From an uncultured Ruminococcus sp. (GTDB lineage Bacteria > Bacillota > Clostridia > Oscillospirales > Acutalibacteraceae), in contig CACXBF010000016.1 of assembly GCA_902765855.1 (NCBI GenBank), positions 1 to 64,000 on the forward strand: a DNA stretch of 64,000 nt. The letters are read 5' to 3'. The number at the start of each line of letters is the position of its first letter. Position 1 is the first letter of the stretch. The translations under genes were made by a program, and so were the position numbers. Positions 12,782 to 43,409 of this stretch are shown one piece after another. The notes beneath the pieces are model-generated. The model was given only the letters and a program-made list of their open reading frames with translations. It did not search any database and was not told the origin of the DNA.

Positions 12782-14527
12782 ATGGTTAGAAAGCTCTTAA
12801 AAAGTGTAAGGGAGTATAAAAAGCACTCTATACTTGCACCTATCTTTGTTATTTTTGAGGTTATAATGGAGGTTGTAATACCACTTCTTATGGCGAATCT
12901 GATAGATTTCGGCATAGATGATGGCAATCTTGAATATATCGTAAAAATGGGCGTTGTGCTTGTAGTATTTGCGGTTATATCTTTGATTTTCGGCATACTT
13001 TCGGGACGAAGTGCAGCCATAGCATCAGCCGGTTTTGCGAAAAATCTCCGTAAGGATATGTATTATAAGGTTCAGAATTTCTCTTTTTCGAATATAGATA
13101 AATTCTCTACCGCAAGTATCGTAACAAGACTTACAACAGATGTAACTAATGTTCAGAATGCTTATATGATGATTATAAGAGTTGCGGTTCGTGCTCCGAT
13201 AATGCTCATATGTGCATTAGTTCTTGCTTTTAATGTAAACGCGTCTATGGCACTTATATTCCTATGTATTGTGCCTATTCTTGCAGTAGGCTTGTTTTTT
13301 ATAATGTCTAAGGCACATCCGATATTTGAGCGTGTTTTTAAGACTTATGATAAATTGAATAATGTTGTACAAGAAAATCTTTATGGCATAAGAGTTGTAA
13401 AGTCTTTCGTAAGAGAAGACCACGAGAATGAGAAATTCGGCAAAATCTCGAAATCCATTTTTAAGGATTTCAGTAAGGCAGAAAGACTTCTTGCTTGGAA
13501 TATGCCACTTATGCAGTTCTGTGTTTATACTTGTATGCTTTTGATTTCTTGGTTCGGAGCAAGACTTATAGTTCTCTCCGGCAATGACCCGGCTGTCGGT
13601 ATGACAACAGGTCAGCTTATGAGCCTTATAACCTACGCAATGCAGATTCTTATGAGCCTTATGATGCTTTCAATGATTTTCGTTATGATTATTATTTCTC
13701 GTGCATCTATGGAGAGAATAACAGAAATTCTCGATGAAGAAAGCGACATCACAAATGGCGAAAATCCGGTAAAGGAAGTCAAAGATGGTTCTATTGTTTT
13801 TGATAATGTCAGCTTTGCATATAAAAAAGATGCTGATGAAATGTGCTTGAGTGATATTTCAGTTTCGATTAAATCCGGTGAAACGGTCGGTATAATCGGT
13901 GGAACGGGTTCAGGTAAGACAAGCCTTGTAAATCTTATCCCAAGACTTTACGATGTTACAAAGGGTAAGCTTACAGTCGGCGGACTTGATGTCAAGGATT
14001 ACGATATAGAGGCTTTGCGTGATTCTGTTGCGGTTGTTTTGCAGAAAAATGTTCTTTTCTCAGGAACAATTAAAGAAAATCTTCGCTGGGGTAATGAAAA
14101 TGCAACAGATGAAGAGATTGTCAATGTATGTAAGCTGGCACAGGCAGATAGCTTTGTTTCCACCTTCCCAAAGGGCTACGATACATATATTGAGCAAGGC
14201 GGTACAAATGTTTCAGGCGGTCAGAAGCAAAGACTTTGCATAGCAAGAGCCTTGCTTAAAAAGCCGAAGATTCTTATTCTCGATGATTCTACAAGTGCAG
14301 TTGATACCAAGACAGATGCACTTATAAGAAAAGCTTTTGCTGAAGAAATTCCTGATACAACGAAGATTATCATAGCACAGAGAATTTCCTCAATCGAAAA
14401 TGCTGATAAGATAATCGTTATGGACGATGGCTGTATAAATGCTGTCGGCACACATGAAGAACTTCTCAAGACAAATGAAATTTATCGTGAGGTTTATACT
14501 TCACAAACAAAAAACTCACAGCAGTAA
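12782..14527 (+). CDS. ABC exporter half-transporter, degenerate-site subunit
   Basis: A 581-residue type IV exporter subunit with six N-terminal membrane helices (about 15-310) fused to an ATPase domain. Walker A is GGTGSGKTS and the signature is VSGGQKQRL. Two catalytic residues are altered: Walker B reads ILILDDSTSAVD, with Asp for the catalytic Glu, and the switch loop reads IAQRISS, with Gln for His. This pattern is known for the noncatalytic site of heterodimers such as TM287/288, LmrCD and BmrCD. AGGAGG precedes the ATG, 14 bases after marR. It pairs with the next gene; a drug or lipid-like substrate is likely but unproven. Confidence 0.93.
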   Translation: MVRKLLKSVREYKKHSILAPIFVIFEVIMEVVIPLLMANLIDFGIDDGNLEYIVKMGVVLVVFAVISLIFGILSGRSAAIASAGFAKNLRKDMYYKVQNFSFSNIDKFSTASIVTRLTTDVTNVQNAYMMIIRVAVRAPIMLICALVLAFNVNASMALIFLCIVPILAVGLFFIMSKAHPIFERVFKTYDKLNNVVQENLYGIRVVKSFVREDHENEKFGKISKSIFKDFSKAERLLAWNMPLMQFCVYTCMLLISWFGARLIVLSGNDPAVGMTTGQLMSLITYAMQILMSLMMLSMIFVMIIISRASMERITEILDEESDITNGENPVKEVKDGSIVFDNVSFAYKKDADEMCLSDISVSIKSGETVGIIGGTGSGKTSLVNLIPRLYDVTKGKLTVGGLDVKDYDIEALRDSVAVVLQKNVLFSGTIKENLRWGNENATDEEIVNVCKLAQADSFVSTFPKGYDTYIEQGGTNVSGGQKQRLCIARALLKKPKILILDDSTSAVDTKTDALIRKAFAEEIPDTTKIIIAQRISSIENADKIIVMDDGCINAVGTHEELLKTNEIYREVYTSQTKNSQQ

Positions 14528-14554
14528 AATTCATACAGAAAGGAATGAGATTTA

Positions 14555-16447
14555 ATGAGTAATCAAAAACAAACAAAAAAGCCTGTAAGAAGTAAAAACA
14601 CAGGCAAAACCGCAAAAAGACTTCTTTCGTATGTTTTTAAATATAAAGGCAGATTGGTTGTAGTTCTTATATCAATCCTTGCAAGTGCATTAACGGGTGT
14701 TGCGTCATCGCTTTTCTTGCAAACACTTATAGATGATTATATAGAGCCTCTTTTGATTGAGGCTGTTCCAAATTTCGCAGGACTTTTCAAAGCAATAATC
14801 TTTATGGCTGGAATATATATTATAGGCGTTGTAGCTACACTTCTGTATAATCGCCTTATGGTTACAGTTGCACAGGGAGTTCTTAAAGATATTCGTGATG
14901 AAATGTTTGAGCATATGCAAAGCTTACCGATAAAATATTTTGATACACATTCACACGGCGATATTATGAGCCGTTATACAAACGATACCGATACGCTCAG
15001 ACAGATGATTTCCCAGAGCTTGCCACAGATGTTCTCATCACTTATTACAATAGTTTCCGTATTCTTTGCAATGCTTGCAACAAATATATGGCTTACACTC
15101 CTTGTAGTAGTTTTTGTATCATTTATGCTTTTTGTTACAAGTAAAATTGCCGGCAAGAGTGCAAAATACTTTGTTAAGCAACAGCAGTCAATAGGTGATG
15201 TCAACGGCTATATCGAGGAAATGATTAACGGTCAAAAGGTTGTTAAGGTTTTCTGCCACGAAGAAAAGGCAAAAGAGGGCTTTGATGAGAAAAACGAGGA
15301 ACTTTGTAAAAATTCCGCAGCAGCAAATATGTTTGCGAATGTTCTTATGCCGGTTATGAATAACCTTGGCAATGTTCAGTATATTCTTATTGCTATAATT
15401 GGCGGTGTTTTCGCCGTCAATGGAATTGGTGGAATTACCCTTGGTGTTATTGCATCATTCTTACAGCTTTCTAAGTCATTTACACAGCCTATGGGACAGA
15501 TTTCCCAACAGCTTAATGCAGTAATTATGGCACTTGCAGGTGCAGAGAGAATTTTCGAGCTTATGGACGAAGAATCGGAAGTTGACGATGGCTATGTAAC
15601 ACTTGTCAATGTGAAGTACGGCAAAAATGATGAACTCGTTGAGGTGGAGGAGCGTACGGGAATATGGGCTTGGAAACACCCACATTCAGACGGAACAGTA
15701 TCCTATACAAAGCTTGAGGGAAAAGTAGAACTTCACAATGTAGATTTCGGCTATGTTGAAGATAAGATAGTTTTGCACGATATAACACTTTATGCCGAAC
15801 CTGGACAAAAGGTTGCTTTTGTTGGTGCAACAGGCGCAGGCAAAACAACTATAACAAATCTTATCAACAGATTTTATGACATTGCAGATGGTAAAGTTCG
15901 CTATGATGGCATTAACATAAATAAAATCAAGAAAAGCGATCTCCGCCGTTCTATTGGTATAGTTTTGCAAGATGTTAATTTGTTTACAGGCACAGTTATG
16001 GATAATATCCGCTATGGCAACCTTAATGCAAGTGATGAGGAATGTATAGCCGCCGCAAAGCTTGCTAATGCAGACGGTTTTATCAGACATTTGCCAGACG
16101 GATATAATACAGTTATTTCGGGTAGTGGCTCAGACCTTTCACAAGGACAGCGACAACTTTTGTCGATTGCGAGAGCGGCAGTTGCAGACCCACCTGTTAT
16201 GATTCTTGACGAGGCTACAAGCTCGATTGATACAAGAACAGAAGAAATCGTCCAGCGAGGAATGGACGGACTTATGTATGGCAGAACAGTATTTGTCATA
16301 GCACATAGACTTTCAACTGTAAGAAATTCCGATGTAATAATGGTTCTTGAATTAGGAAGAATTATTGAGCGAGGAAGCCATGAAGACCTGATAAAACAGC
16401 ATGGACAGTATTATAGATTGTATACAGGTGCGTTTGAACTGGAATAA
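14555..16447 (+). CDS. ABC exporter half-transporter, catalytic-site subunit
   Basis: The 630-residue partner of the preceding gene. Six membrane helices (about 35-340) precede an ATPase domain with Walker A GATGAGKTT, canonical Walker B MILDEATSSID and switch histidine IAHRLST. Its signature is LSQGQRQ rather than LSGGQ, the complementary deviation expected because this motif completes the degenerate site of the partner. About 45 extra residues (around 355-400: NVKYGKNDELVEVEE, WKHPHSDGTVS) are inserted before the ATPase domain. AGAAAGGAATGAG precedes the ATG. Last gene of the marR operon. Confidence 0.94.
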   Translation: MSNQKQTKKPVRSKNTGKTAKRLLSYVFKYKGRLVVVLISILASALTGVASSLFLQTLIDDYIEPLLIEAVPNFAGLFKAIIFMAGIYIIGVVATLLYNRLMVTVAQGVLKDIRDEMFEHMQSLPIKYFDTHSHGDIMSRYTNDTDTLRQMISQSLPQMFSSLITIVSVFFAMLATNIWLTLLVVVFVSFMLFVTSKIAGKSAKYFVKQQQSIGDVNGYIEEMINGQKVVKVFCHEEKAKEGFDEKNEELCKNSAAANMFANVLMPVMNNLGNVQYILIAIIGGVFAVNGIGGITLGVIASFLQLSKSFTQPMGQISQQLNAVIMALAGAERIFELMDEESEVDDGYVTLVNVKYGKNDELVEVEERTGIWAWKHPHSDGTVSYTKLEGKVELHNVDFGYVEDKIVLHDITLYAEPGQKVAFVGATGAGKTTITNLINRFYDIADGKVRYDGININKIKKSDLRRSIGIVLQDVNLFTGTVMDNIRYGNLNASDEECIAAAKLANADGFIRHLPDGYNTVISGSGSDLSQGQRQLLSIARAAVADPPVMILDEATSSIDTRTEEIVQRGMDGLMYGRTVFVIAHRLSTVRNSDVIMVLELGRIIERGSHEDLIKQHGQYYRLYTGAFELE

Positions 16448-16469
16448 TGCTAACAAATTTCCCTACGAC

Positions 16470-16570
16470 AATTAAAAGTTTTGCTCAAGGCGGAGTGCCT
16501 CCGCAATCAAGACGCGAAATCGCTCAACAAGTTTCGCTCGTAGTGGATTAGGGAAGATAGTTGACGCGGT
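16470..16570 (+). repeat. Interspersed hairpin repeat, variant copy
   Basis: Shares the AATTAAAAGTTTTGCTCAAG header but then carries a different module, GGCGGAGTGCCTCCGC, followed by CGCTCAACAAGTTTCGCTCG. It starts about 20 bases after the second ABC gene. Confidence 0.55.
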
Positions 16571-16609
16571 CGGGGGAACTACCGATTAACTAATGCACTT
16601 TTCTAAGAC

Positions 16610-16737
16610 AATTAAAAGTTTCGGTCGAGCCTTTTCAAAGGCTCGCAGGGTTGAGGGACGGAGTCCCTCATGGGTTTTAAGGGCAACGCCCTTAACATTC
16701 TTTGCTCCTAAGGGCGGACTTTGTCCGCCCTTTTTTG
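16610..16737 (+). repeat. Interspersed hairpin repeat ending in a terminator
   Basis: The best-formed copy. The AATTAAAAGTTTC header is followed by four hairpins: GAGCCTTTTCAAAGGCTC, GAGGGACGGAGTCCCTC, AAGGGCAACGCCCTT and AGGGCGGACTTTGTCCGCCCT, the last with a T6 tract. A remnant (GTAGGTGAACACAGTTCGCCC) continues to about 16790. The terminal hairpin is a good intrinsic terminator for the marR-ABC operon. Confidence 0.75.
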
Positions 16738-16799
16738 CTAATGTTGTTGACAAAAGAAATTATGTAGGTGAACACAGTTCGCCCACTTAGAAAGTAAGA

Positions 16800-17035
16800 G
16801 ATTTTAAGAATCTTAATTTAAGATTCTTAATTTTGATAATTCATAAATTGTTAACCATAACTTTAAGTAAATTTAAGGTAGTGGGAATAATATTTATATC
16901 AGCAAGAGGAAAACAACTTGCTAAGATTTTTTCTTTCCTTTCTAATTTTTTGTTTTGATAACAAACCTTTTTTCAAACCTCGCTTTTAGTAGAAAAACCT
17001 GCGGACAGCACACCGCAGGTTTTTTGTTTTGTTGA
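16800..17035 (+). other. Non-coding stretch with hairpins, possible small RNA
   Basis: No credible coding frame. A promoter-like pair, TTGATA (16833-16838) and CATAAC (16856-16861) with 17-base spacing, precedes AGCAAG/CTTGCT around AGGAAAACAA (about 16903-16924) with a T-rich tail. A strong terminator hairpin AACCTGCGG/CCGCAGGTT with TTTTTT follows at about 17003-17028. The terminator has no coding gene ahead of it on this strand except through the repeats, so a small transcript is possible. Confidence 0.3.
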
Positions 17036-17212
17036 AAACCTTCTGTTTTTTAAATTTTATTAAGTTTTTTAAAAAAGCGTGTAGGGATTTTAAACTTTAT
17101 TGCGTATTATATTATACAAGGGTGTGTTCTTGAACTTTTATAGTAAAGAATGGAATAAAAAGAATTTAAAGCAATAATTTATAGTATATGCTGTTTTAGG
17201 AGGTGTTTTTGC

Positions 17213-18226
17213 TTGAATATACGAGAACAAACCGAGAATATCGAAAAAACAATATTGTCGCCGTTTGCTAAACTTGCATCAGAGAGTGAAGGCAGATTAA
17301 AGCTTGAACAACCATGTTTGGTGAGAACTTGTTTTCAGCGTGATAGAGACAGGATTATTCATTGTAAATCATTTCGTCGATTAAAGCATAAAACACAGGT
17401 ATTTCTCTCTCCGGAGGGTGACCATTATAGGACACGCCTTACTCATACACTTGAGGTTTCTCAAATAGCAAGAACAATAGCAAAAGCACTGAGACTTAAT
17501 GAGGATTTAACCGAAGCTATTTCACTTGGACACGACTTGGGTCATACGCCTTTTGGACACGCAGGAGAAAAAGCTTTAGATGGGATTTCACCGAGTGGCT
17601 TCAGACATTACGAGCAAAGTCTTAGAGTAGTTGATTTTCTTGAAAAGGATGGTAAAGGTCTTAATCTTACCTACGAAACGAGAGATGGCATTTTAAACCA
17701 TACTAAAGGTAAAGAAGCGACAACTCTCGAGGGCAGAATTGTCCGACTTGCGGATAGAATAGCCTATATCAACCACGATATAGATGATGCAATTCGAGCA
17801 GATATAATTTCTGAAAATGATATACCAAAGAAAATTTCCAAAGTTCTTGGCGATAATACAAGCGAAAGAATAGATAGACTTGTAATATCAGTAATCGCAA
17901 ATTCGCAGAACGGAATATTATCAATGGATTCGGAAATGCAAAGTTGTTTTGATGAACTTCATTCGTTTATGTTCGATAGAGTATACTTAAATAATACCGC
18001 TAAAAAAGAAGAAAAGAAAATACCCAAGCTTATAGAGGCTCTTTATGAATATTTTTATAAACATATAGACGAGATACCATCTCATATACTTATACATTCC
18101 AATGGTGATACCGATAGGGCGGTTTGCGACTATATCGCCGGAATGACCGATAAATACGCAGTAGAACTTTTCAAAGAAATTTTCATTCCAAAGTCGTGGA
18201 GTAAAACAGGAAAAAACCTTGCGTGA
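17213..18226 (+). CDS. dgt: dGTP triphosphohydrolase-like HD-domain protein
   Basis: A 337-residue HD-superfamily enzyme that releases tripolyphosphate from dGTP or related dNTPs. Metal-binding residues are in [19 protein letters not shown] and [15 protein letters not shown], with a later [21 protein letters not shown] near residue 60 is the family's substrate region. The start is TTG at 17213 with AGGAGGTG upstream. It heads the dgt-dnaG-rpoD operon common in clostridia, linking dNTP pools to replication and transcription initiation. Its stop overlaps no real gene; the dnaG start lies 36 bases on. Confidence 0.92.
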
Positions 18227-18261
18227 GAATTTTTGTTATATTTTTTAAGGGGGTGATTATT

Positions 18262-20028
18262 ATGCCGTTACCTGATGAATTTTTGCAGGAACTAAAATTA
18301 AGAACAGATATTGCAGATGTCATATCATCATATGTGAATTTAAAAAGAGTAGGTCGAAATCTTGTCGGACTTTGCCCTTTTCATAGCGAGAAAACACCTT
18401 CATTCAGTGTTTCACCTGAAAATGGCTTTTTTCATTGTTTTGGTTGTGGTGTAGGTGGAGATGTAATAACCTTTATTAAGCGTATAGAAAACCTTGATTA
18501 TATTGACGCAGTAAAGCTTCTTGCCTCTCGTGCCGGACTTGAAATGCCGACAGACACGCAGTCGAAGGGTTTGAGTGAGCTTAGAAAACGCATTTTCGAG
18601 GCAAATCGTGAGGCGGCAAGATTTTTCCATAAGGCTTTGTATTCACAAGATGGAGTACACGCACTTTCGTATTTGCGTGGCAGAGCCTTATCCGAGGCAA
18701 CAATAAAGCATTTTGGCTTAGGCTATTCGCCTCCGTCACGCTTTGCACTCGTCAATTATCTAAGAGCAAAGGGCTTTAAGGATTCCGAACTTGTCAGTGC
18801 GAACTTAGCTTTTACAACGAAAAGCGGTCATACAATGGATAGATTTTTCGACCGAGTGATGTTTCCGATAATTGATGTAAGGGGCAATGTAATCGCATTT
18901 GGCGGAAGAATAATGTCCGATGAAAAGCCTAAGTACCTTAATACATCAGATACGCCTGTGTTTAAGAAAAGCTCAAATCTTTTTGCACTTAACTTTGCAA
19001 AAAATGTCGGAGAAAATATGCTTATCCTGTGCGAGGGCTATATGGATGTTATCGCACTTCATCAAGCAGGTTTTCAGAATGCTGTTGCTACGCTCGGAAC
19101 ATCTCTTACTACCGAGCAAGCAATGATTATAAAACGCTATTGCGATACGGTTGCAATATGCTATGATGCCGATGAGGCAGGCCAAAAAGCGACTTCTCGT
19201 GCAATCGGCATACTTCGCCCAACGGGTATCGACATAAGAATAATCATCGTTCCAAGTGGAAAAGACCCTGATGAATTTATTCGTTCATATGGCGAACAAG
19301 GAACGGCAAGATTCAGAAAACTTCTCGAATCAAGCGGAAATGATGTTCGTTATCAGATACAGAAAGTTCGCAAAAAGTATGATACACAAATTCCTGAACA
19401 AAGAATAAGCTTTCTTAATGAATGTGCAAGACTTCTTGCCGAGCTTAACAGCGATATTGATGCAGATGTTTATGCAGGAGAACTTGCCGAGGAACTTTCT
19501 GTTTCAAAATCATCTATTAAGAATGAAATTGAGAAATATCGAAAACGTTCGTTCAAAAAAGAAAGCAAAGAGCAGATACGAAACATACAGCTAAAAACCT
19601 CTGCCGCTAATGATAGAATAAACCCCGAAAAGCATAGAAATCTTCGTGCCGCAAATGCAGAGGAAGCAATAATTGCCATACTTATAAATAACCCAGACCT
19701 TGCGGATACTATAATGTCAAGGATTTCTGCGGATTCGTTCGTCACTTCGTTTAATAAGCGAGTTTTCAGCATTTTGCTTGAGAGGGTTAAGGAAATGCGT
19801 TCAGTTTCGCCTATGGATATATCGGAAGATTTTACCGCTGACGAGATGAGTAGCATTACTTCGATTTTATCATCTCGCCCACGAGAAAATAATCCAAAAC
19901 GGGCGATTCAAGAATATATTGATGTTCTGCTTGAGGAGAAAGAAAAAATTTCCCCGGAGAAAGCAGCGTCAGCCAGTGATGAAGAGATGTTAGAATATTT
20001 CAAAAAATTGAGGGAAAGAAAAAAGTAG
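18262..20028 (+). CDS. dnaG: DNA primase DnaG
   Basis: Makes RNA primers at the replication fork. The N-terminal zinc finger is C-P-F-H and C-F-G-C with FHSEKTPSFSVSPE between them. The Toprim domain shows LILCEGYMDVIAL and C-Y-D-A-D-E-A-G-Q-K-A. The C-terminal third is the helicase-interaction domain. The start is the ATG at 18262, preceded by AGGGGGTGAT; an in-frame ATG at 18223 would add a hydrophobic tail not found in primases. The length, 588 residues, is usual. It is followed by rpoD after 12 bases. Confidence 0.96.
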   Translation: MPLPDEFLQELKLRTDIADVISSYVNLKRVGRNLVGLCPFHSEKTPSFSVSPENGFFHCFGCGVGGDVITFIKRIENLDYIDAVKLLASRAGLEMPTDTQSKGLSELRKRIFEANREAARFFHKALYSQDGVHALSYLRGRALSEATIKHFGLGYSPPSRFALVNYLRAKGFKDSELVSANLAFTTKSGHTMDRFFDRVMFPIIDVRGNVIAFGGRIMSDEKPKYLNTSDTPVFKKSSNLFALNFAKNVGENMLILCEGYMDVIALHQAGFQNAVATLGTSLTTEQAMIIKRYCDTVAICYDADEAGQKATSRAIGILRPTGIDIRIIIVPSGKDPDEFIRSYGEQGTARFRKLLESSGNDVRYQIQKVRKKYDTQIPEQRISFLNECARLLAELNSDIDADVYAGELAEELSVSKSSIKNEIEKYRKRSFKKESKEQIRNIQLKTSAANDRINPEKHRNLRAANAEEAIIAILINNPDLADTIMSRISADSFVTSFNKRVFSILLERVKEMRSVSPMDISEDFTADEMSSITSILSSRPRENNPKRAIQEYIDVLLEEKEKISPEKAASASDEEMLEYFKKLRERKK

Positions 20029-31452: not shown

Positions 31453-31493
31453 AACACCCCGCTTATCGGATAATTTCTGATAAGCGGGGTGTT
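31453..31493 (+). terminator. Terminator of the mal-amylase operon
   Basis: AACACCCCGCTTATC (31453-31467) pairs perfectly with GATAAGCGGGGTGTT (31479-31493), followed by TATATTT. A sister hairpin with compensatory changes occurs at 43351-43391. Confidence 0.9.
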
Positions 31494-31599: not shown

Positions 31600-31945
31600 T
31601 TTTGATTTATATAGTATAAAAACAACCCAATTTTCACGACTTACTATTGCAATTTGTGTAGGAAAATTATATAATTTATACGATAGATTTGGATTGGTTG
31701 GTTTTATAGGTGATTAAGCAAAAATTATTGATGCATTGAATAAAATCTTATTGAAATTTTTTAGAAGATAGTGAAATTATAGATAGATTTTTTGCAGTAT
31801 TATAGAAATTGTGAATTCATTATTTAAAATGCCTATTCAGTATACGCAATTATAAAAAATAAGTAGTATTTTGGCAAATGCTTGCAGATAATGTTGAGTT
31901 TAAGCTTGAACTGGGTTATAAATTCTTCTAAAATCAAAATCTTAT
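31600..31945 (+). pseudogene. Possible remnant of a small gene
   Basis: A 500-base gap with no intact gene holds short protein-like runs broken by stops: RLTIAICVGKLYNLYDRFGL followed by VGFIGD, then AKIIDALNKILLKFF, then DSEIIDRFFAVL, then WQMLADNVEFKLELGYKFF. They read left to right like fragments of one protein, but in shifting frames. I recognise no family; chance open stretches in AT-rich DNA cannot be excluded. Confidence 0.25.
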
Positions 31946-31992
31946 TTTAAAATAGTATAATTTCAACTTTCGGTTTGAAAGGATGTAAAGTA

Positions 31993-32760
31993 ATGAATTT
32001 TATGGTTTCAGCAGAAACAGATATTGGAATAGTAAAAAGCACAAATCAGGATAGCCTCAGCGTTAAAATCATTGACACATATCAGGGTAGAATGGCTTTT
32101 GCTATAGTATGCGATGGTATGGGTGGATTAGAAAAAGGTGAGCTTGCAAGTGCAACAGTAGTAAGGGCTTTTGATAAATGGATAAATGAGCAATTACCTG
32201 TTTTAACTATGCAAGCCCTTGACCAATCAATTATATTTTCACAATGGAAAGATATTATTTCAGAACAAAATGAAATTATAGGTCGTTATGGAGATTCGCA
32301 AGGGATAAAGCTTGGCACAACAGTTGTTGCGTTGCTGATAACTCAAAACGAATGTTTTATTATAAATGTAGGTGACTCAAGGGCATATGTGATAAATGAT
32401 AATATAAATCAGATAACACAGGACCAGACATTTATTGCTCGCGAAATAGCACTTGGAAATATGACACCTGAACAAGCTAAAACAGACAGAAGACGAAATG
32501 TTCTTTTGCAGTGTGTTGGTGCATCAGATAAGGTTTATCCTGATGTTTTTTATTTAAAATCAGATAAAAACACAGTATATATGTTATGTTCAGATGGTTT
32601 TCGACATGAAATAACTCAAGAAGAAATATATGAAAAATTAAAGCCAGAATTATTGATTAGTAGTGATATTATGATGCAAAGTTCTAAAGACCTTATTAAA
32701 CTTAATAAGGATAGAATGGAGAATGATAATATTTCTGTTGTACTAATCAGAACATTTTGA
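31993..32760 (+). CDS. PP2C-family Ser/Thr phosphatase (PrpC/Stp-like)
   Basis: A 255-residue soluble metal-dependent phosphatase. The metal-binding motifs are STNQDSLSVK, VCDGMGGLEKGELAS, VGDSRAYVI, LLCSDGFRHEI-type (MLCSDGF) and ENDNISVVLI. The start is the ATG at 31993, seven bases after AAAGGATG. It is the first gene of an operon continuing with a membrane Ser/Thr kinase, the usual phosphatase-kinase pair of Gram-positive bacteria. It probably reverses phosphorylation of the kinase and of the downstream membrane proteins. A -10-like TATAAT lies at 31956-31961 without a clear -35. Confidence 0.93.
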   Translation: MNFMVSAETDIGIVKSTNQDSLSVKIIDTYQGRMAFAIVCDGMGGLEKGELASATVVRAFDKWINEQLPVLTMQALDQSIIFSQWKDIISEQNEIIGRYGDSQGIKLGTTVVALLITQNECFIINVGDSRAYVINDNINQITQDQTFIAREIALGNMTPEQAKTDRRRNVLLQCVGASDKVYPDVFYLKSDKNTVYMLCSDGFRHEITQEEIYEKLKPELLISSDIMMQSSKDLIKLNKDRMENDNISVVLIRTF

Positions 32761-32853
32761 TTTAAAATTAGGGCAGCACCGCATAAATATTACAGAGATT
32801 TATATATATTTTTGCAGTGGTGCCTTAGTTAGTTTATTTTTGAGGGATGATTT

Positions 32854-34562
32854 ATGTTAGAAATAGGGTCAATTATAGATGGAAAATATAAAATTCTGAA
32901 CAAGGTAGGACAAGGCGGTATGAGCATTGTATACCTTGCTATGAATGAAAAGGCAAATAAGCAGTGGGCTATTAAGGAAGTCAGAAAAGATGGCGTAAAA
33001 GACTTTGAACTTATAAAACAGGGGCTCATTGTTGAAACAGATATGCTTAAAAAATTAAGTCATCCAAGCTTACCAAGTATTGTTGATGTTATAGAAGATG
33101 ACGATACATTTCTTATAGTTATGGATTACATACAAGGTAATCCATTGAGCAAAACTCTGGAAGAATATGGGGCACAATCTCAGGAGAATGTTGTTGAATG
33201 GGCAAAGCAATTATGCGATGTTTTGGGATATCTTCATTCGAGAAAACCCCCGATAATATATAGGGATATGAAACCTGCAAATGTTATGCTTAAACCAGAT
33301 GGAAGTATCACATTAATAGATTTTGGTACAGCAAGAGAATATAAGTCTAAAAATATAGCTGATACGACCTGTCTTGGAACAATAGGCTATGCTGCACCAG
33401 AGCAATTTGGTGGAATGGGACAAACAGATGCAAGAACGGATATTTATTGCTTAGGTGCAACCCTCTATCATTTGGTTACGGGAATGAACCCATGCGAACC
33501 GCCTTATGAAATAAGACCTATCCGCCAAATAAACCCCGCACTTTCGAGCGGTCTTGAAAAAATTATTATAAAATGCACACAGCGCGACCCTAATGCAAGA
33601 TATCAGTCTTGTGCGGAGCTTATGTATGACCTTGAGCATTTCGATGAGATGGATAATACTTATAGACGAAAGATGAAATTTCATTTGGGAATATTCATTA
33701 CAAGTGTTATACTTACTATAGGTTTTGGTTGTGTGGCTATATGGGGTAACTCATCAGCCGAAAATATTAAAAGTAAGAACTACTCTTATATACTTTCTAA
33801 TGCTAAGTCTTTAATTATTATGAGGCAATTTTAACTGACCCATCAAAAACAGATGCTTATTTTGAGCTTGTTAATTATCTAAGAACAGATACACTGACAA
33901 AAGAAGAAGCAGATGGGCTTAATCAGCTTCAGGCTGGGCTTGATAGAAAAAATTCTAATGGATATTCAGAAACAGTAAATGTCCTTGAAAAACTTAAGGA
34001 AAATAATTATGATGGCTACCTTGATGTATGTTATGAATTCGGAAATGCCTTCCTTTTTTCATCGGATACAACAAATGACAGGGAAAGATATGTGAACGCT
34101 GCAAAATGGTTTTCTGAGGCAAAAGATAAGTATGAGATGGCTTCTATATTCTGTGATATTGCCTCTTGTCTTCAGCTTATTGACCAAAATCATCAGTCTA
34201 CAATAGTACAGAAGGGTAAGGAACTTCAGGAATATAAAAACTTATGGGATAAGCTTACTAAACTTGAATCTAAGGTTGATGGACTGGGAAAAAGTCCGGA
34301 AGAAAGCGATACTAAGATAAATGTTATAAATAGCATAACAAATATAATCTATAATAATGCCAATGGTTTTGTAGATGCTATAAAAAATAATGGATTGAGC
34401 TATAAGAAAATTGATGCACTTCTGAGCGATATGAATTCAAAGCTTGCGGATATTGATGACTCTATATATAAGGAACAAAAACAGCAGGTTAGTGCTATGA
34501 TTTCTGATACTATAGAGAAATATAAAATAACAAGTGCAGAAAAAGGAAGTGGCAATGAATGA
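32854..34562 (+). CDS. Transmembrane Ser/Thr protein kinase, frameshifted
   Basis: Kinase domain at residues 1-265: G-Q-G-G-M-S loop (19-24), Lys41 in AIKEV, YRD (136-138, Tyr for the usual His), DFG (156-158) and APE (181-183). A membrane helix follows at about 278-296. The frame then stops at 33832 shortly after SNAKS. The next frame, open from 33807, continues FNYYEAILTDPSK and runs without interruption to 34562, giving an extracytoplasmic, helix-rich, TPR-like region of about 240 residues. Loss of one T in TCTTTTAAT near 33808-33813 explains the shift. I therefore read one gene of about 569 residues. As written it would give a 326-residue kinase lacking its sensor. The true state may be a base-calling error or a real mutation. 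Confidence 0.8.
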
Positions 34563-35068
34563 CATATGAAATATATCAATATATCTTCTATGGTTCGCTT
34601 ATAATGTGCATAGTTATGTTGATTTTATCGGTTATACTTTTTTTTGCCTTTAAAATTCCTAAAGTAATTGAATTTTTAAGTGGTGCTACGGCAAGAAAGG
34701 CAATCAAAACTATAAATGAACATACAGAGCAATCTATGAGTCAAAGACTTAAACAGAAAAATGGCAATGCACACAATATTGATTTTTCGTCTTCTGGTAA
34801 GCTTATGAAAAAAACAAATGTATCAATGGATTCAGATTCACCGATAACTGAAAAGTTTAAAACAGAATCATTGATACCCGGTAATAATACTACGGTACTT
34901 AATCAGAGGAATAATGAAACTAAAGTTTTATCGCAGACAAGTTCATTAGAGGAAACAAGTGTTCTCAATAATTCCAATGAAGCTAATATTGATGATGGTT
35001 TAGTACCAAAAGAATTTGCGGTTATATATGATATTACATATATATGGACAAATGAAACTATAAAGTAG
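34559..35068 (+). CDS. Single-helix membrane protein with three T-x-V-L motifs
   Basis: A 169-residue protein: one N-terminal membrane helix (about 10-31), then a polar tail presumed cytoplasmic. The tail carries TTVLNQ (111-116), TKVLSQ (121-126) and TSVLNN (133-138), each in an Asn/Ser/Glu-rich context. Threonines in T-T-x-V/L-type motifs are known kinase targets bound by FHA domains, as with GarA/OdhI E-T-T-S-V-F. The protein ends with F-A-V-I-Y-D-I-T and a W-T-N-E-T-I tail. ATGA overlap with the kinase frame couples translation. Proposed role: phosphorylated scaffold or substrate of the adjacent kinase (inference). No FHA protein is encoded nearby. Confidence 0.75.
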   Translation: MTYEIYQYIFYGSLIMCIVMLILSVILFFAFKIPKVIEFLSGATARKAIKTINEHTEQSMSQRLKQKNGNAHNIDFSSSGKLMKKTNVSMDSDSPITEKFKTESLIPGNNTTVLNQRNNETKVLSQTSSLEETSVLNNSNEANIDDGLVPKEFAVIYDITYIWTNETIK

Positions 35069-35080
35069 GAGGTTACCTAA

Positions 35081-35539
35081 ATGAAGAATGAGAATAGTAA
35101 GGGAAGTTTTTTTCTTTTATTATCAATGATTTCATTTTTTATAATGTCGGCTACATTTTTAGTAATGCCGCTTATACAGACAGATATTGATAGCGGGAAT
35201 AATGCTTATAGTATTATTATTGGTATTACTTTTTGGCTTACTTTAGTCTTTGGTATTATAAGCTTATTTTTAGCTCGAAAAAATATTCAAGGAATAGAAA
35301 ATATAAAAAAAGGAATAGGGCTTATAAAATTTTTTCAAAATAAAATTGCTGCTATTTTTGATATTTTGTTGATAATCAGTATTATAGGGCTTATAATTTT
35401 GACGATTATAACCGATGGTACATTATATATATGTTACATATTTTTTAGTGCAGTTACTTTTTCATTTATTATGCACTGCATATTGAATGGAAATATATTT
35501 AACTGTTTAATTATAAATAAAAAGAGGAGTGAAGTTTAA
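35081..35539 (+). CDS. Four-helix membrane protein of unknown function
   Basis: A 152-residue integral membrane protein with four hydrophobic segments: SFFLLLSMISFFIMSATFLV, then about residues 40-65, 83-107 and 112-135. It has short Lys-rich loops and no recognised motif. TAGGAGGTTACCTAA precedes the ATG. It is 12 bases after the T-x-V-L protein gene and ends one base before the start of the giant Ig protein, so it is co-transcribed. It could assist export or anchoring of that protein; nothing in the sequence proves this. Confidence 0.75.
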   Translation: MKNENSKGSFFLLLSMISFFIMSATFLVMPLIQTDIDSGNNAYSIIIGITFWLTLVFGIISLFLARKNIQGIENIKKGIGLIKFFQNKIAAIFDILLIISIIGLIILTIITDGTLYICYIFFSAVTFSFIMHCILNGNIFNCLIINKKRSEV

Positions 35540-35540
35540 A

Positions 35541-38500
35541 ATGGCAGAGAGTAATATTAAATTTAGGGATAGAGTCGTTTCTGCTATCCTGGCATTACTT
35601 ATTCCAATACTTGGACTTAATATGGGAAATTCATTTAATATAGCAGAGGCTACATCATATAATGATGAAACTCAAAATAATATAAGTTCTGTTCAGAATA
35701 ATAAAAAAGAAAATCAAACACAAAAAAGAATGCTGACGGTGAATACAGTTTTTGAAACATATGATGATACTAAAGCACCAGATAAAGTACTGGTTAAAGT
35801 ACCGAATACGGTCTTCAAATATAGAATATATTCTGACGAAGAAAAAAAGAATCCTATTTCTGATGAGAAAACGGCTTGTTCTGGCGATGATGGTCAGACG
35901 ATAATTGAATTAGATGATGGAGATACGGTATATGTTGAAATAATATCGGCTAATGCTTATGGATATTTTTTAAGGAAATCTAAAACAGTGGAAGTGGCAG
36001 ATAAAGTTAAAGTCTATAATGTTGAGCTTAGCAAGGAGGCTTCGCATTATTATTCAATTTCTTTAAAGACTATAGATAGTAAAAGCGGAATTGCTATAGA
36101 TGCCATAGATTCATCTAAGGCATCTGCGAATCAAATAAAAATTAGTACAGCATAGTAAATGAAGAAGGAATTACTGTTACTAAAGATGCTAATAAGACTA
36201 TGAGGTATAATAGCAAACTTAATAAATATGTAACTACACTTTATGAAAATGAAATTTATGATTTTATATATACATCTAATGAATACCAAAACAAAACAAT
36301 AAGAGCTAAAGGTTTGAATCCTAATGAGAAGGATGGTAATAATACTTTCTTAACAGGACAGATAGATAAAATTAACAACAATGATGTTTATGATATGGAA
36401 CCGATAATTGTTGAAAAATTGCTTGAAGATAAAAGTCTGAAATTTGTAGATGGTTCAGATAAAGAATTTTCTGAGCTTAATATGATTTATGGTGATAACC
36501 TGAATATAAGTGTAAAATCAGATAACATTGCTGATGAATATTTAGATCAGATAACAGCAAATTCTTCTGATGAAAATATAGTTTCTGTTATTAAGGATGG
36601 TTCCTCTATTAAGCTTAAAGCAAATAAAACTGGAGAGGCTACTATTAATGTAACTGTGCCTTCTGATGGAAAATATAAGAAAAGTGAATTGAGTTTTAAA
36701 GTTACAGTAGAAGCAAAGGAATTAGGTGATGAAATAGAATTTTTAGGCGTTCCTCAAAATCCTAAGGTAAATAGCAAAAGTAATCAACTTAAAGTAACAA
36801 ATATTTCTGAAGACGCTGGAGAAGTTGAGATAACATATTATATATCAAAGGTTACTCGTCTTGATGGTAGCAATGTTAATACGAAGCAATATAGTGATTA
36901 TGTTGAGATTGACTCTGAAGGTAAGTTAAGTTTTCATAAGGCTTGTAGATTTAAAGTAAAAGCAGATATAAAAAGTTCAAATTTAAATTATAAGATTAAA
37001 ACAATCGAAACAAAAGAAATTCTTGTAGATAAAGATATAGTAAGACCAAAATTTGAAGAAGAAAATATAAGTCTTAAATATGGAAAAAGCGCTACAAATA
37101 AATTAAAAAATTTTGTTGAAGAATATGGCGTTTTAACATACTCCTCAAGTGATAGTAAAATTGCATCTGTTGATGAAGAGACAGGTCTTGTAAGTGGAAA
37201 AGATATAGGAAATGCAGTTATTACGGCTACAATTGATAGCGAATCATATACATTTGGATATATAGATGGCAAAGAAGTTAATAATATTTCTTATTCAGTA
37301 AACGTAGAAAAAGCAGACCAGGATGTTTCCTTTTCGGACAAAATGATTAAAAACATTACTTATGGTGACGAAATAGAGAGTAGCTCTGATTGGTTTGCTG
37401 GAATCCAAGAAAATGCTGAATTATTAAGTGCCGATATTGAAGAAAATGATTATGCAAAATTAGATGGAAATAAAATAATAGTCAAAAATGCTGATGATAA
37501 TGCAAAATTTAGAATTAGGTTTAATTTTGCTGAGACAGCTCATTATAAGGCTTTTACTACTGATTATGCTATTATATATGTTGAGCGTGCCGATAGAAAT
37601 ATTGATATTTTTGCTGGTAGTGAGAAAATTACCGGCAAGACGCTTGAACTTAATTATGGTGAACAAAAACAATATCAGCTTTCATATTCTCTGCCAACCG
37701 ATGAAGAAGTAAATGTTAGTTTTAATATTTATAAGCTTCATAATGGTGTTTATGAGGAAATGACTGGCGAAGGAAAAACTTCCATAGACAATACAGGGCT
37801 TATAAAATTTGCGGATAAAGATACTGGAAAATATAAGGTAACTGTTAAAAACGTACAGGGTAAGTGTTATAATGAATCCAACGCAGAGGCATATATCAAT
37901 CTTGACCTTGCAAAGTCTGATTCTTTGAATTGCACTTATTCTCAAACAGAGTATAATGATTGGTATAACACAACAAATGGCATCACCATTACTCCTCCTG
38001 ATGGATATAAAATTAGCGATGATATGAGTTTTAATGATGATAACTGGAAAGATACATATTCATATGTGGGAAATGGAAAAAATCAGCATATTGAATTTTA
38101 TGTCAGAGATAATCTGAATGGAAAAATTTATAAAATAGAAAAAGAAAACATAAATATTGATAATACCGACCCTTATAATCTTGATATTTCATATAACAGT
38201 GAAAAAAATGTATATAATACCATTCTTAATTATATTACATTCGGACTTGTAGGAAGTGGAGATACAAATATTGAAGTAACCTTGAGTGCTTATGAGGATA
38301 TTTCCGGTATAGAGAGTTTTTCTTATACACTGATACCGGAAGATAGCAGAGAACTGAACTCCGAAAATGCGGTTAATGAAAATGTTATACTTGATAATGT
38401 AGAAACAGCCATAGATGAAAATGGAAAGACTTATTATAAAGCTTCATTTAAGATTGAAGCCGAGTTCAGAGGCGATATTAAATTTACTGCAAAAAGTAAG

Positions 38501-41500
38501 GCAGGACTTCAAACAGAATACGATAAAAATGCTAAGGTTATAGTTGATAATAGAAAACCTGATGTTGATATTAAGCTTGACTCTGAGGCTGTGGCAACTA
38601 ATGGACAATATTACAATAAATCTGTTGTAGCTAATATCAGCATTTCTGAAAGCAATTTTGATGCGGACAAGGTTGATATTCTTATCAATGGTCAGAAGCT
38701 TTCTGAGAGCGGATATAAGCTTGAAAATGATGAATGGGCTAAGAGCGGTAATACAGAAAAAATAACATGGACAAACTCAATTAAGTTTAGTGAAGATGGA
38801 GTTTATAACATTTCTGTTATTGCAAGTGATGAGCTTGGACAGACTTCTGATGAAAAAACAACAAGCTTTATTATTGATAAAACAAAACCGATAATCTCTG
38901 TTGAATATTCTTCTGATTCTCCGGCTGTGAACGAAAAATTCTATACAACAAAAATCAGAGCAAAGGTATCGGTTAATGAAGCGAATTTTAGAGCTGATGA
39001 TATTATATTTGAGCTTAAAGCACAAGATGTTACACTTAATAATATAAACGATTATGAAACAGTTCTTAAAGAACTGAATGACACACTTCATAATGGAGAA
39101 TGGATTTCTAACGGAAGTAATCATTATATTGAAATTGAGTTTAACAAAGATGCGAACTATGGCTTTACATTAAATTATACAGATCTCGCAGGAAACGATG
39201 CTGAGGAAAAATATAATTCACCTGATTTTGCGATTGACCAAACACCACCTACAAATCTTAGTGCTAAATATTCTGAAGAAAAGAACTTCTTTGAAGAAAT
39301 TATTGATAACATTATATTCAATACCTATTATTATAAGGATAATGTAACAATTACATTTAGTGCAGAGGATATGACTTCTGGTATTGATTCGATTGATTGG
39401 GTATATCAAAGACAAAATGGCTCAAGTGATTCATCTGTTGCTGATGTAAGTAAGCATTTTAACAAAGAAGATATTACATTCTCTGAAGATGTAAAAACTG
39501 GTAAAGTAATAGTCGAATTGTCAGCAGAGGAAAGCAAACAGTATCGTGGAACGATTTCGTTTACGGTTACTGATATGGCAGGAAAAACAGCAACTTGTCC
39601 GGTAGAAAATAAAGATGAGAGAGTAATTGTTGTTGATAATATTTCACCGACAAGAAGCGTTGAATATCAAACAAACAACTTTGTAAAGGCAATATATGCA
39701 GATAGCTTTAAAAATGCTACATATGATATGAAGTCTGACACTAATAATTACAGACTTTATTATAAAAATAATGCTACTCTCAAATTTACAGTTAAAGAAG
39801 CTAATTTCTTTGGCGAGGATATTAATCTATATGATAATGGTAAGTCTATAGACTTTAGCGAAAATTGGCAACAAAATGGTGATGAGTATACAAATACGCT
39901 TACCCTAAGTGATGAGGGAGAGCATATTATTAAAATGACATATACGGACCGTTCAACTAATGAAATGAAGTCGTATGAGTCTAATACTATAATTATTGAT
40001 AGAACCAAGCCGGTTATAGATGTTCAATATTCTCCAGAAAATAAAATTTCTGATGCAAATAAAAATGTTTACTGCAATAAACAGCAGACAGCAACGATTA
40101 AAATTACTGAGCGTAATTTCCGTGCAGATGATGTTGCAGTAACAGTTAGTGCTAAAGATGCAGGCGGAAATGACATCAAAGTGACTGACTATGCAGCATA
40201 TCTTTCATCAAGAGATAGCTGGAAAAAGAATGGAGATACATATACAGCAACAATAAAGTATTCTATAAATGCAAATTATACTTTTGATATTTCTTATTCC
40301 GATTTGGCTTCTCACTCTGCTGATAACTATAAGCAGGATAAATTTACAGTTGATGAGTATGCTCCATCAACCTCAAAGATGAAAATTTCATATAGCAAAG
40401 AACTTAATTTCTGGGAAAGTGTATTAAATGGAATTACTTTTGGTTATTACGCATATCAGAAAGATGTTACAGTTACTTTGACAGCGGTTGATGATATTTC
40501 AGGCGTTGACAGTATGAAATGGACATATACAAGAGAGAATGGCGCAAGCACCACTAAAAATCTGAAAAGTGATAGCGGAAATATTAAAAATGTGATAATT
40601 TCTTCAGATGGTAAAACAGCAACCGCAAAATTTACTCTTACAGCCGACCAATCAAAACAGTATAGAGGAAAAATTTCCTTTACTGCAACTGATAGGTCTG
40701 GAAATACAAGTAGTGTAAAGAATGATAATAAAAATAGTATTGTTATAGTCGATACTATATCGCCTACAAGAAGTGTTGAATTTAGCAAGGCTGATAGGGT
40801 TGTTACTGCATATGATATGAATGATGTAAGTAATTATAACTATGGTACAGAAGGAAATTCATATAAGCTATACTATAAGGATAGTGCAACTGCTACTATT
40901 AAGATTACTGAGGCAAACTTCTATCCGGAAGATGTTAATATAGCGGTCAATGGTTCAAAGCAAAAGGTGAATAACTGGAAACAGAGTGGCGATACTTGGA
41001 CAGGCAATCTTAAACTCTCAAAAGAGGGAGAGTATGTTATAACGATTAATTATATTGATAGGTCAAATAATAAAATGAAAACTTATACATCGAATGAGAT
41101 TATTGTTGACCATACTAATCCTGTAATCAATGTCGCATATTCTCCAAATAAGGTTGTAAATACTGCTAATGGAATTAAATATTATAATTCTGCACAGATA
41201 GCTACTATTAGCGTTGCTGAGCGTAATTTCAGAGCAGATGAGATTGTTGCAAGCATTACTGCAGTTGATGTTAATGGAAAAGCTGTTGGTGTTGAGAATT
41301 ATGCTCAATACCTTAGCAAGAGAAGCAACTGGATAAAAAATGGCGATGTATACACAGCGAATATTAAATATTCGGCTGATGCTAATTATACTTTTAAGAT
41401 AGAGTATGAGGACTTAGCAGGAAGAAAAGTACAGAACAATGTTGAGGATAAGTTTACAGTTGATAAGACTGCACCTAAAAACTTGAAAATATCCTATAGC

Positions 41501-43333
41501 CAGAATGTTTTCCAAAGTGTGCTTAATTCTATAACATTTGGTTATTACAATGCACCTGTTACGGTTACTATTTCCGCAGAAGATGATACCACAGCTATTG
41601 GAAAATTTGTATATAGCTATTTGAAAGATAATAATTCAAGTAATGTTAATGCACAGTTGCTTAATGAAGCAATCAGCAAGGCTGATATAAAGAGAAACGG
41701 TAATGTTAATACTGCAACATTCAGAATTCCAAAATCAGTTCTTGACGCTCAGCATCAGTATAATGGTACTGTTAAATTTACAGCATATGATATGTCACAA
41801 AATGATAGTGATAAATCAGATACTAAGAAGATAATAGTTGACAATATCAAACCTGAAATAGATGTAACCCTTAATAAACCAATATCAACATCAGATGGAA
41901 CAGCTTATTATGATGGTAAAATAGACGCTACACTGAAAATAAATGAGGCTAATTTCTATTCTGAAGATGTCAGAGTTATGGTTTATGATATAAATGGAGA
42001 GCGTACATTGAATCCTTCAGTAAACTGGACTGATAATAATTCAGATCTACATATAGGTACTTTCTCGATTAATAAGGACGGAAAATATCGTATAGAGGTT
42101 GAATATACAGACCGTTCAAATAATAAGATGAACAACTATGCTTCGGATTATTTGATTATTGATACTAAAAAACCAAGCTTAAAGGTTACTAATATTAAAA
42201 ATAATACTGCTAACAAAGATAAGACCTACGGCTTTACTATCGATGCAAGCGATACTAATATTGATTTTAAGAGCTTTAAACCAGTTCTTGAAGCACTTAT
42301 GATGACAAGCTCGGGACAATTCAAAAAAGAAAACATTGACCTTAGCAAGTATCTTAGAAAAAATAGCAGTACATCATATTCATATGTTGTTGATAATCTT
42401 AGCGATGATGCGGTATATACACTTAGCTGTTCTGTTGCAGATATGTCTGGTAATAAGACAGAAAAGATTCTTCTTGATGATGGCAAAACATATGATAATG
42501 CAGAATTCTCTATAAACCGAAATGGTTCGACATTTAAGATTGATGAGAATACACAAAAGCTTTTAGATAACTATTATGTTTCAAGTGTTGATAATGATAT
42601 AGTTATTCAAGAGATAAATGTTGACCCGATAGAAAATTATGTAGTTAAGCTTAATGGAACAGCTCTTAAAGAAAATGAGGACTATACAACATCTGAAACT
42701 ACAGATACTTCTAAGTGGTGTGAGAGAAAGTATGTTATAAATTCATCATTATTTGAAAATGAGAGTGACTACGATATTAAAATCGAATCAACTGATAAGG
42801 CTGGTTCTGTGGCTTATAGTGATTTGAAGGGACTTGAAGTTAAGTTTGTAGTTGATAAGACTCCGCCTACACTTATAGTCAGTGGTATAGAAGATAATGG
42901 TCGTTATCAGGTACAGGAACAGAAAGTTACAGTTATTCCTTCAGATAATGGAGGAAAATTGGGAAGTCTGAAAATAGTTATTCTTGATTCTAATGGCAAA
43001 GAAATAAAGGTTTTGTTTAATAAATCCGGAGAAGATTTATTAAAGTATCTGAGCAGTAATAATGGCAAGGTTGAATTTAATATTCCAGAAGGTTTTGAAA
43101 ACCAAGTCGTATTTTACTGCGATGATTGTTCGGTAGGTTCAAATGGACAGTTTAATGAAAATAAGAAAATTATTTCAAATATAACTGTTTCACCGAATAA
43201 TTTCGTTATTTTCTATGCTAATAAGCCAATGTTCTATAGTGTAACTATTGGTGGTTCTGTTTTGATTATCGGTATTATTGTAGCGATTGTTCTTATTGTT
43301 CGTAGAAAAATGAGAAAATATATATCACAATAA
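35541..43333 (+). CDS. Giant Ig-repeat surface protein, frameshifted near its 5' end
   Basis: About 2597 residues once one frameshift is corrected. The start is the ATG at 35541 after GAGGAG. The N-terminus carries a signal-type helix (VVSAILALLIPILGLN). The first frame stops at 36153; the frame reading SIVNEEGITVTKDANKT is open from 36146 and runs to 43333, so one base seems missing near 36146. Domains: unknown N-terminal region; Big_2-like Ig domains around 36430-37320 (SSDSKIASVDEETGLVSG); four rounds of a three-module Ig super-repeat at about 38165-42530; two further Ig-like domains; and a C-terminal membrane helix (VLIIGIIVAIVLIV) with the basic tail RRKMRKYISQ. There is no LPxTG. Probably a membrane-anchored, cell-surface stalk or adhesin. 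Confidence 0.85.
38165..42530 (+). repeat. Four tandem copies of a ~1.1-kb, three-module Ig super-repeat
   Basis: Modules recur in fixed order. C modules have K-x-S-Y-S, a V-L-N-x-I-T-F-G-Y-Y segment and D-D-I-S-G (starts about 38165, 39240, 40362, 41468). D modules have S-P-T-R-S-V-E and an A-N-F-x-x-E-D-V segment (about 38555, 39640, 40759, 41845). B modules have K-P-V-I-x-V-x-Y-S-P and N-F-R-A-D-D (about 38884, 40006, 41112, 42165). The fourth B module is degenerate. DNA identity is low enough that the frame and order, not the bases, show the repeat, so the duplications are old. Confidence 0.75.
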
Positions 43334-43350
43334 TGTTGGCTTTATAAAAT

Positions 43351-43391
43351 AACACCCTGTTTATCATATAATTTATGATAAACAGGGTGTT
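43351..43391 (+). terminator. Terminator of the kinase/Ig-protein operon
   Basis: AACACCCTGTTTATCAT (43351-43367) pairs perfectly with ATGATAAACAGGGTGTT (43375-43391), then GATATTTTGG. It ends only nine bases before the ribosome site of the HAD gene. Closely related to the hairpin at 31453-31493. Confidence 0.85.
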
Positions 43392-43409
43392 GATATTTTG
43401 GAGGAGCTT

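Follow-up and report, generated by a model that had tools for sequence, protein, structure and literature searches.

A kinase and phosphatase gene set with an FHA partner, linked in relatives to Tad pilus loci and probably decaying in an uncultured Ruminococcus sp.

What is the role of five tightly packed genes, running from a PP2C phosphatase to a giant surface protein, in an uncultured Ruminococcus sp., and is this copy still in working order? The genes lie on the + strand from position 31993 through 43333 of a stretch of 64,000 nucleotides (GenBank assembly GCA_902765855.1, contig CACXBF010000016.1, positions 1 to 64,000), which in its whole length is called the window here. An earlier note on this DNA, made from the letters alone, had described a kinase/phosphatase operon tied to an Ig-repeat protein, and had proposed that contact or load on that protein is sensed and relayed through phosphorylation of T-x-V-L motifs in a small membrane protein. 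Here we present a comparison of the locus with its relatives. With somewhat better than even confidence we read the operon as the signalling half of a Tad-pilus locus (in other lineages, of a type VII secretion system (T7SS) locus), which would act as a phosphothreonine-FHA relay and is probably decaying in the window. The genome has a size of 2.39 Mb. Among the named genomes compared, Pseudoruminococcus massiliensis Marseille-P3876 (locus L090) stands closest to it, and the percentages below refer to that strain. The genes and their parts are:

31993..32760, + strand: PP2C-type phosphatase (Pfam PP2C_2, 44.6 bits at a cut-off of 24; 89%)
32761..32853, + strand: spacer with a strong hairpin (z -4.3; P. 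massiliensis counterpart -6.4)
32854..33834, + strand: Ser/Thr kinase domain and transmembrane helix, the frame ending early (Pkinase, 162 bits; 97%)
33807..34562, + strand: kinase ectodomain in a different frame (the junction differs by 4 bases from that of P. massiliensis; relatives hold intact copies)
34559..35068, + strand: one-helix membrane protein with a motif-bearing tail, like TseH/TseK of the T7SSe set treated below (hydropathy; 80%)
34889..34900, + strand: T-x-V-L motif 1, preceded by N (sequence)
34919..34930, + strand: T-x-V-L motif 2, preceded by E (sequence)
34955..34966, + strand: T-x-V-L motif 3, preceded by E (sequence)
35081..35539, + strand: four-helix membrane protein (hydropathy; not constant among relatives)
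35541..36155, + strand: giant Ig-like protein, N-terminal part with a signal-type hydrophobic segment, the frame ending early
36146..43333, + strand: giant Ig-like protein, main part with a C-terminal membrane helix, in a different frame (84%)

A total of 200 genomes of the family were searched with the main Ig part, which matched in 20, and with the kinase ectodomain, which matched in 5. In 15 of the 20 genomes with an Ig match, that of the window included, PP2C and kinase genes lie upstream of the Ig gene. Regarding the other five, two gave a weak match to a short protein (G030, G056), two have a contig that starts inside the Ig gene (G154, G184) and one has only a weak kinase-like match upstream (G136). 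DUF6382, a domain of the FHA protein described below, was found in 13 of the 15 genomes with the module and in 10 of the 185 others, and the congener G192 yielded no match to the ectodomain, the Ig protein, DUF6382 or TadA.

Counts by locus are based on the best 80 of 488 relatives of the window kinase in named genomes (77 kinase open reading frames (ORFs) of more than 400 residues), each count covering the loci with room on the relevant side; L116 and L123 are short, and L112 has no kinase ORF by the gene caller. The latter locus has Tad and Ig genes together with a kinase match, and is perhaps a broken copy or an artefact of the caller. PP2C is upstream of the kinase at 75 of 75 loci, an FHA protein lies at most 3 kb upstream of the kinase at 57 of 69, a one-helix tail protein is present at 67 of 72, the four-helix protein was matched by its hidden Markov model (HMM) at 38 of 72, and an Ig giant follows downstream at 53 of 61 (52 by HMM, 1 by length). 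The median gaps are 12 bases between PP2C and kinase (78 loci), 3 between kinase and tail protein (71) and 37 between FHA protein and PP2C (63). By charge, 63 of 71 tail proteins of relatives have their C-terminus inside the cell. As judged from sequence comparison, the unit is an FHA protein, a PP2C, a one-helix kinase, a tail protein, sometimes a four-helix protein, and an Ig giant. The linkage of the kinase pair to the giant that the earlier note had proposed is thus a conserved neighbourhood: PP2C, kinase, tail protein and Ig giant recur in the co-occurrence search, and relatives in which pair and giant are never neighbours were not found.

In the window itself, ORFs, Pfam matches and hydropathy agree with the five gene types in the order and places first described, and the order is more than chance. 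The spacings between the genes are, in order, 93, -4, 12 and 1 bases; the tight packing described earlier therefore holds for the 4-base overlap and the gaps of 12 and 1 bases, but not for the gap between PP2C and kinase, which is not near zero and contains the hairpin. The hairpin is kept in P. massiliensis, with one match per genome in both genomes searched. The PP2C ORF is also open from a TTG at 31975, and a consensus scan for promoter-like sites gave 81 where 75 were expected. The name Ig-repeat protein is owed to a single Pfam Big_2 match above the cut-off, with weaker matches below it.

The FHA protein that relatives usually have just upstream of PP2C is a partner of the module that was absent from the earlier note, and it shares the motif of the tail protein. 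Motifs were counted in 71 tail proteins, 63 FHA proteins and 56 'Ig' proteins (the EssC of L130 among them), with maxima taken over 200 shuffles. T-x-V-L occurs 165 times in the tail proteins versus 6.5 times after shuffling (maximum 13, about 25-fold excess) and 123 times in the FHA proteins versus 9.8 (maximum 18, about 13-fold), whereas there is no excess in the kinases (6 versus 11.4), the PP2C proteins (8 versus 8.9) or the Ig proteins (57 versus 49.7). The preferred form is E-T-T-V-L in tail and FHA proteins alike (motif E-T-T/S-V-L). Copies are placed in a regular manner: none precedes the membrane helix of a tail protein, and 113 of the 123 copies in FHA proteins are located 100-139 residues from the C-terminus, directly before the FHA domain. 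This stretch holds two T-x-V-L in 52 of the 63 proteins, one in 7 and none in 4, several of the last keeping T-x-x-L. When 41 of these 63 proteins were aligned, the two Thr and the two Leu proved invariant; out of 244 linker columns, these four and the two Val are the only ones conserved at 90% or above. The pocket residues S, R, H and N of the FHA domain are conserved as well. At least two copies of the motif were found in 53 of 63 FHA proteins with the module versus 0 of 52 without it (Fisher 6e-23, a value that ignores relatedness; L202 and L204, loci with kinase and PP2C, are left out of the 52). These patterns point to the T-x-V-L motifs as likely phospho-sites and to the FHA protein as the likely reader of the phosphothreonines.

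In a model of the FHA partner, DUF6382 and the FHA domain are both predicted with confidence and the linker between them is mostly disordered; the matches of the FHA domain in Foldseek include EmbR, GarA, OdhI and DgcB. The secondary structure of the DUF6382 model brought a pseudokinase to mind, a reading that was dropped, the 50 Foldseek rows shown being FHA matches. A sequence search of the PDB gave no match for the Ig protein at E 0.01, a best E of 0.079 for the ectodomain and a best E of 0.78 for DUF6382.

Which machine would such a relay serve? The term Tad genes is used here for any HMM match to TadA, TadB, TadC, A24 or DUF5702 (L102 by A24 alone). Among the 55 loci with more than 8 kb upstream, 34 have Tad genes, 5 have EssC/YukD genes and none has both. 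A class-level sample was drawn from 391 genomes, 127 of them with DUF6382, by taking every second listed genome down to the 121st of the 127, which gave 59 loci (L044 and L087 were set aside as already covered, and 5 of the 59 have no FHA ORF by HMM). TadA, TadB or TadC was found at 52 of these 59 DUF6382 loci, a T7SS gene by HMM at none, and kinase, PP2C and tail protein together at one; the DUF6382-FHA protein is therefore mainly a Tad-locus protein in the sample, to which the module was added at few loci. In a quick kinase tree with long branches, the 8 T7SS-linked rows need 7 changes, and 87 of 500 shuffles were as low. Because the T7SS-linked rows are no more clustered than in the shuffles, the linkage seems to switch between machines. 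Other kinases were also seen adjoining FHA or Tad genes, namely L194, L199 and L201 (296-307 residues) and L206, L214 and L087 (949-1036 residues), the latter three with a large membrane protein.

An explanation by which the set is simply T7SSe and its Tad neighbours are incidental is quite improbable in our view. The components are the same as TseD, TseF, TseH/K, TseI and TseJ in excerpts of PMC11217815, and some relatives adjoin EssC/YukD/WXG100 genes, but the two counts above favour Tad genes, and the genome of the window gave 0 matches to WXG100 (TseA, TseA2) and none to an EssC-size ATPase (TseC), its sole FtsK_SpoIIIE match being an open frame of 952 residues.

The N-terminal part of the FHA protein tends to differ with the machine. 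DUF6382 occupies it in all 37 FHA proteins at Tad loci, whereas of the 26 other proteins, 15 match an HMM for trypsin-like proteases, 5 have DUF6382 and 6 have neither. The protease type occurs at 7 of 11 loci with neither machine, 4 of 5 T7SS loci and 4 of 10 short loci. The HMM was built from 4 sequences, and its 15 matches among 63 proteins include 3 of these seeds and L164 at 12 bits; Pfam trypsin matched L134 and L141 clearly over the cut-off and L165 marginally, while a fourth protein put to Pfam, that of L090, is of the DUF6382 type. At L134, L141, L165, L124 and other non-Tad loci, a trypsin-like domain, a membrane helix, the tandem E-T-T-V-L and the FHA domain replace the DUF6382 type.

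Is the copy in the window intact? At the same site in P. massiliensis, between the alpha-amylase gene and the HAD/hisS genes, a Tad cluster is followed by a DUF6382-FHA gene and then by the module. Pfam identifies T2SSE (TadA) and two T2SSF (TadB, TadC) in this cluster, with TadE and DUF5702 weakly; the names TadZ, small Flp-like gene and prepilin peptidase follow from gene position and from resemblance to other clusters. No Tad genes adjoin the module in the window. Instead, the region between the amylase terminator and PP2C holds two colinear remnants, listed here with the palindromes that border the module:

31453..31493, + strand: terminator-like palindrome after the alpha-amylase gene, upstream border (matches the P. 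massiliensis region 3' of the amylase gene)
31727..31835, + strand: DUF5702 (Tad-locus) gene, surviving as a degraded remnant (aligned to the P. massiliensis gene at 71% in 114 columns; 46.4 bits)
31875..31960, + strand: DUF6382-FHA gene, 3' end surviving as a degraded remnant shortly before PP2C (41.0 bits versus P. massiliensis)
43350..43392, strand given as (.): terminator-like palindrome after the giant gene, downstream border (palindrome scan)

By tblastn, the FHA remnant matches residues 503-516 (E 0.01). None of 100 dinucleotide shuffles was as good for either remnant, and 40 kb of other P. massiliensis DNA scored at most 27.4 bits. Since the remnants are colinear and above these controls, a Tad-FHA block was once there and was lost in the lineage of the window. 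The similar palindromes of 41-43 bases that flank the module on both sides could have aided deletions.

No full DUF6382-FHA (TseJ) gene was found at the window locus, where the 3' remnant is all that was seen. The only such gene of the genome stands on contig C1, at the end of a Tad cluster (7328-19825 of locus L062; TadZ receiver, T2SSE and T2SSF over cut-off) that is also the one TadA place of the genome. Its product carries two T-x-V-L copies and is just 51% identical to the P. massiliensis counterpart; this cluster may be moved or foreign. Elsewhere in the genome, contig C13 (locus L003, 1327-3036) encodes an FHA domain fused before an FtsW/RodA-type protein (FTSW_RODA_SPOVE 186.8 bits, FHA 57.2 bits), and contig C4 (locus L007, 658-2313) a protein that resembles a kinase and has PASTA domains (56.3 bits for PASTA, 41.1 bits for a partial Pkinase match); its catalytic motif looks altered by eye, and it is perhaps a pseudokinase. 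A codon search of the genome for E-T-T/S-V-L gave 8 sites versus 15 in the reversed control and is uninformative for further substrates.

Two genes of the operon are split between frames. In P. massiliensis, the kinase and Ig genes are open throughout, with frames of 573 and 2607 residues. The membrane kinase with an extracytoplasmic helical region of the earlier note is accordingly one frame in the window as far as domain and helix are concerned, but not a single ORF, the ectodomain being in the other frame; likewise, the membrane-anchored protein of about 2600 residues is obtained only by reading across the break. The comparison set consisted of 29 P. massiliensis ORFs of at least 100 residues with a window match above 60% identity (hisS counted as two pieces); among these, the kinase alone is spread over two frames, and the Ig gene is the sole one matched without its N-terminal part, the latter being found in the other frame. 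The window end truncates one further ORF. The Ig junction has one base fewer than P. massiliensis, whereas the kinase break amounts to 4 bases and lies at a site free of repeats. Two single-base breaks were rejected on this ground, as were, from the kinase break, programmed frameshifting and phase variation. With the Tad-FHA block lost, a separate Tad locus on contig C1 and two frame breaks, the window copy is probably a recently failing unit, and it is doubtful that it works.

An intact operon, its frame breaks being assembly errors, that works in trans with the C1 Tad locus is rather unlikely. The ratio of nonsynonymous to synonymous divergence (dN/dS) for most module genes of the window versus P. 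massiliensis is low (0.03-0.33 over the whole divergence; 0.49 for the poorly aligned Ig N-part), and the FHA protein on contig C1 keeps its two motifs. Set against this are two breaks in one operon versus none in the other 27 matched ORFs, the 4-base difference outside a repeat, and the loss of the pilus block of the same operon with remnants left. If the breaks are real and not assembly errors, the low dN/dS indicates that decay was late.

The same dN/dS values, and the fact that the frame breaks could be assembly errors, count against our reading of the operon as a decaying relay of a Tad-pilus locus, as do several other observations. The 41 aligned FHA proteins were picked by length and thinned by hand, and L092, L119 and L163, which were left out, are without the tandem motif. 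In a tree of FHA rows of at least 330 residues, the contrast between proteins with and without the module amounts to only 2 independent pairs, a number that cannot reach significance. In the AlphaFold model, the motifs are disordered (pLDDT, the predicted local distance difference test, below 50 or near it) and not docked on the FHA domain. An FHA protein upstream is missing at 12 of 69 loci, the Ig giant downstream at 8 of 61 (one of these, L130, has a giant upstream), and neither machine was found at 16 of 55; the share of Tad genes among the 80 nearest kinase loci may not hold for the rest of the 488.

The input of the relay is a separate question. The model of the earlier note, in which load or contact is sensed by the Ig protein and so drives the kinase, is unlikely as it stands, although the two genes are conserved neighbours and 28 of the 33 complete Ig ORFs of more than 1500 residues combine a hydrophobic segment at the N-terminus with a helix at the C-terminus. 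The giant is absent downstream at the 8 loci just mentioned, its frame is broken in the window, and a role as conduit, adhesin or wall anchor would fit it equally well.

A structural model of the P. massiliensis kinase (alignment of 52 of 79 kinases) reached a mean pLDDT of 83; its ectodomain is helical except for one short strand pair, mostly at pLDDT 76-97. The 50 Foldseek rows shown for the kinase are led by the kinase domains of Stk1 and PknB, so that the ectodomain has no match of its own among the matches listed. By fold the kinase domain is thus nearest to Stk1/PknB, and by sequence the kinase part is nearest to the full-length PASTA-kinase model, though below its cut-off (215.8 bits, cut-off 450). 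That the kinase and PP2C are a PrkC/PrpC-type envelope-stress pair, with the remaining genes as passengers, is nevertheless very improbable: Pfam gave no match to PASTA or any other family in the ectodomain piece, the ectodomain is mostly helical, the gene order is conserved with FHA and tail protein, and a separate PASTA-like kinase/PP2C pair is present on contig C8. The pair of the operon is distinct from the latter, in keeping with the contrast to PrkC/PrpC drawn in the earlier note.

Taken as a phosphothreonine-FHA relay, the module would work in the following way. The kinase would take its cue from the envelope, perhaps from the Ig protein, and would phosphorylate each motif at its first Thr. 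Binding of pThr-x-V-L by the FHA domain would follow, whether on the membrane tail or within the linker of the FHA protein itself. Phosphorylation would in this way place the FHA protein at the membrane or release it, gating the machine that its N-terminal domain serves, and PP2C would reset the switch. A wider reading, tentative and in our estimate slightly less probable than its opposite, is that of a portable cassette: kinase, PP2C, motif-tail protein and Ig giant may form one sensing unit for different surface machines, coupled through a swappable adaptor of tandem E-T-T-V-L and FHA domain, whose N-terminus would be DUF6382 for Tad and often a secreted trypsin-like protease with a membrane helix in non-Tad loci; the window copy would have lost its machine and then its own frames. 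One motif, one kinase and one FHA domain make a specific and cheap test for the possible switching of Tad pili and T7SS in gut Clostridia, suggest a phospho-tail role for TseH/TseK-like one-helix proteins, and link two machines that are usually studied apart.

Among known systems, the nearest in components is the T7SSe accessory set TseD, TseF, TseH/TseK, TseI and TseJ (Garrett, Higginson and Palmer 2024, PMC11217815, seen in part). The likeness comprises a one-helix kinase with an extensively helical C-terminal part (TseD; its frame is broken in the window), a PPM phosphatase (TseF), a one-helix protein with a short cytoplasmic part (TseH/TseK, not told apart here), a large Ig-like protein bearing both a signal peptide and a helix at its C-terminus (TseI, by description, its frame broken in the window) and, in the loci of relatives, a DUF6382-FHA protein (TseJ). 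The passages seen describe the short cytoplasmic parts of TseH/TseK as unstructured; they also place Tad genes next to T7SSg and T7SSh and note a TadZ-like domain for T7SSf. The module differs in that the genome of the window has no match to WXG100 or an EssC-size ATPase and that its relatives mostly have Tad genes instead; neither the shared E-T-T-V-L motif nor the set beside Tad genes is mentioned in those passages.

Tad (Flp, type IVc) pilus loci of Clostridia resemble the locus in the DUF6382-FHA gene at the end of the P. massiliensis cluster, whereas in most of those sampled neither the kinase module nor the tandem motif accompanies the FHA gene. In the open-access literature (preprints were not covered), no description of a Tad-linked kinase/FHA set was among the matches listed. 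The words kinase, phosphatase, forkhead and FHA are absent from PMC3244431 on Gram-positive type IV pili, and PMC8726730 reports pilus-like filaments of P. massiliensis (strain E10-96H), with 'Tad' absent from the portion of its text that was available. CpaF proteins with an N-terminal FHA domain are reported (excerpts of PMC12019362), whereas here the FHA domain is on a separate protein. PrkC/PrpC are similar in having a PP2C adjoining a one-helix Hanks kinase, and differ in the PASTA repeats, the ectodomain and the neighbours.

OdhI is an FHA switch with a Thr motif in a disordered segment beside the FHA domain. GarA (PMC5448819) and DgcB (PMC6733907) are, in the parts of these sources seen, of the same kind, the segment being bindable when phosphorylated, and a pTXXL ligand of the Rad53 FHA2 domain is reported in a title cited in PMC3146460. 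The likeness is to the FHA partner of the relatives, not to a gene of the window: a Thr motif in a disordered segment and an FHA domain with a conserved pocket. The difference is that usually two motifs stand before a C-terminal FHA domain, and that the same motif occurs in a separate membrane protein. The coupling to Tad genes, the shared motif and the protease-FHA partner outside Tad loci are apparently new.

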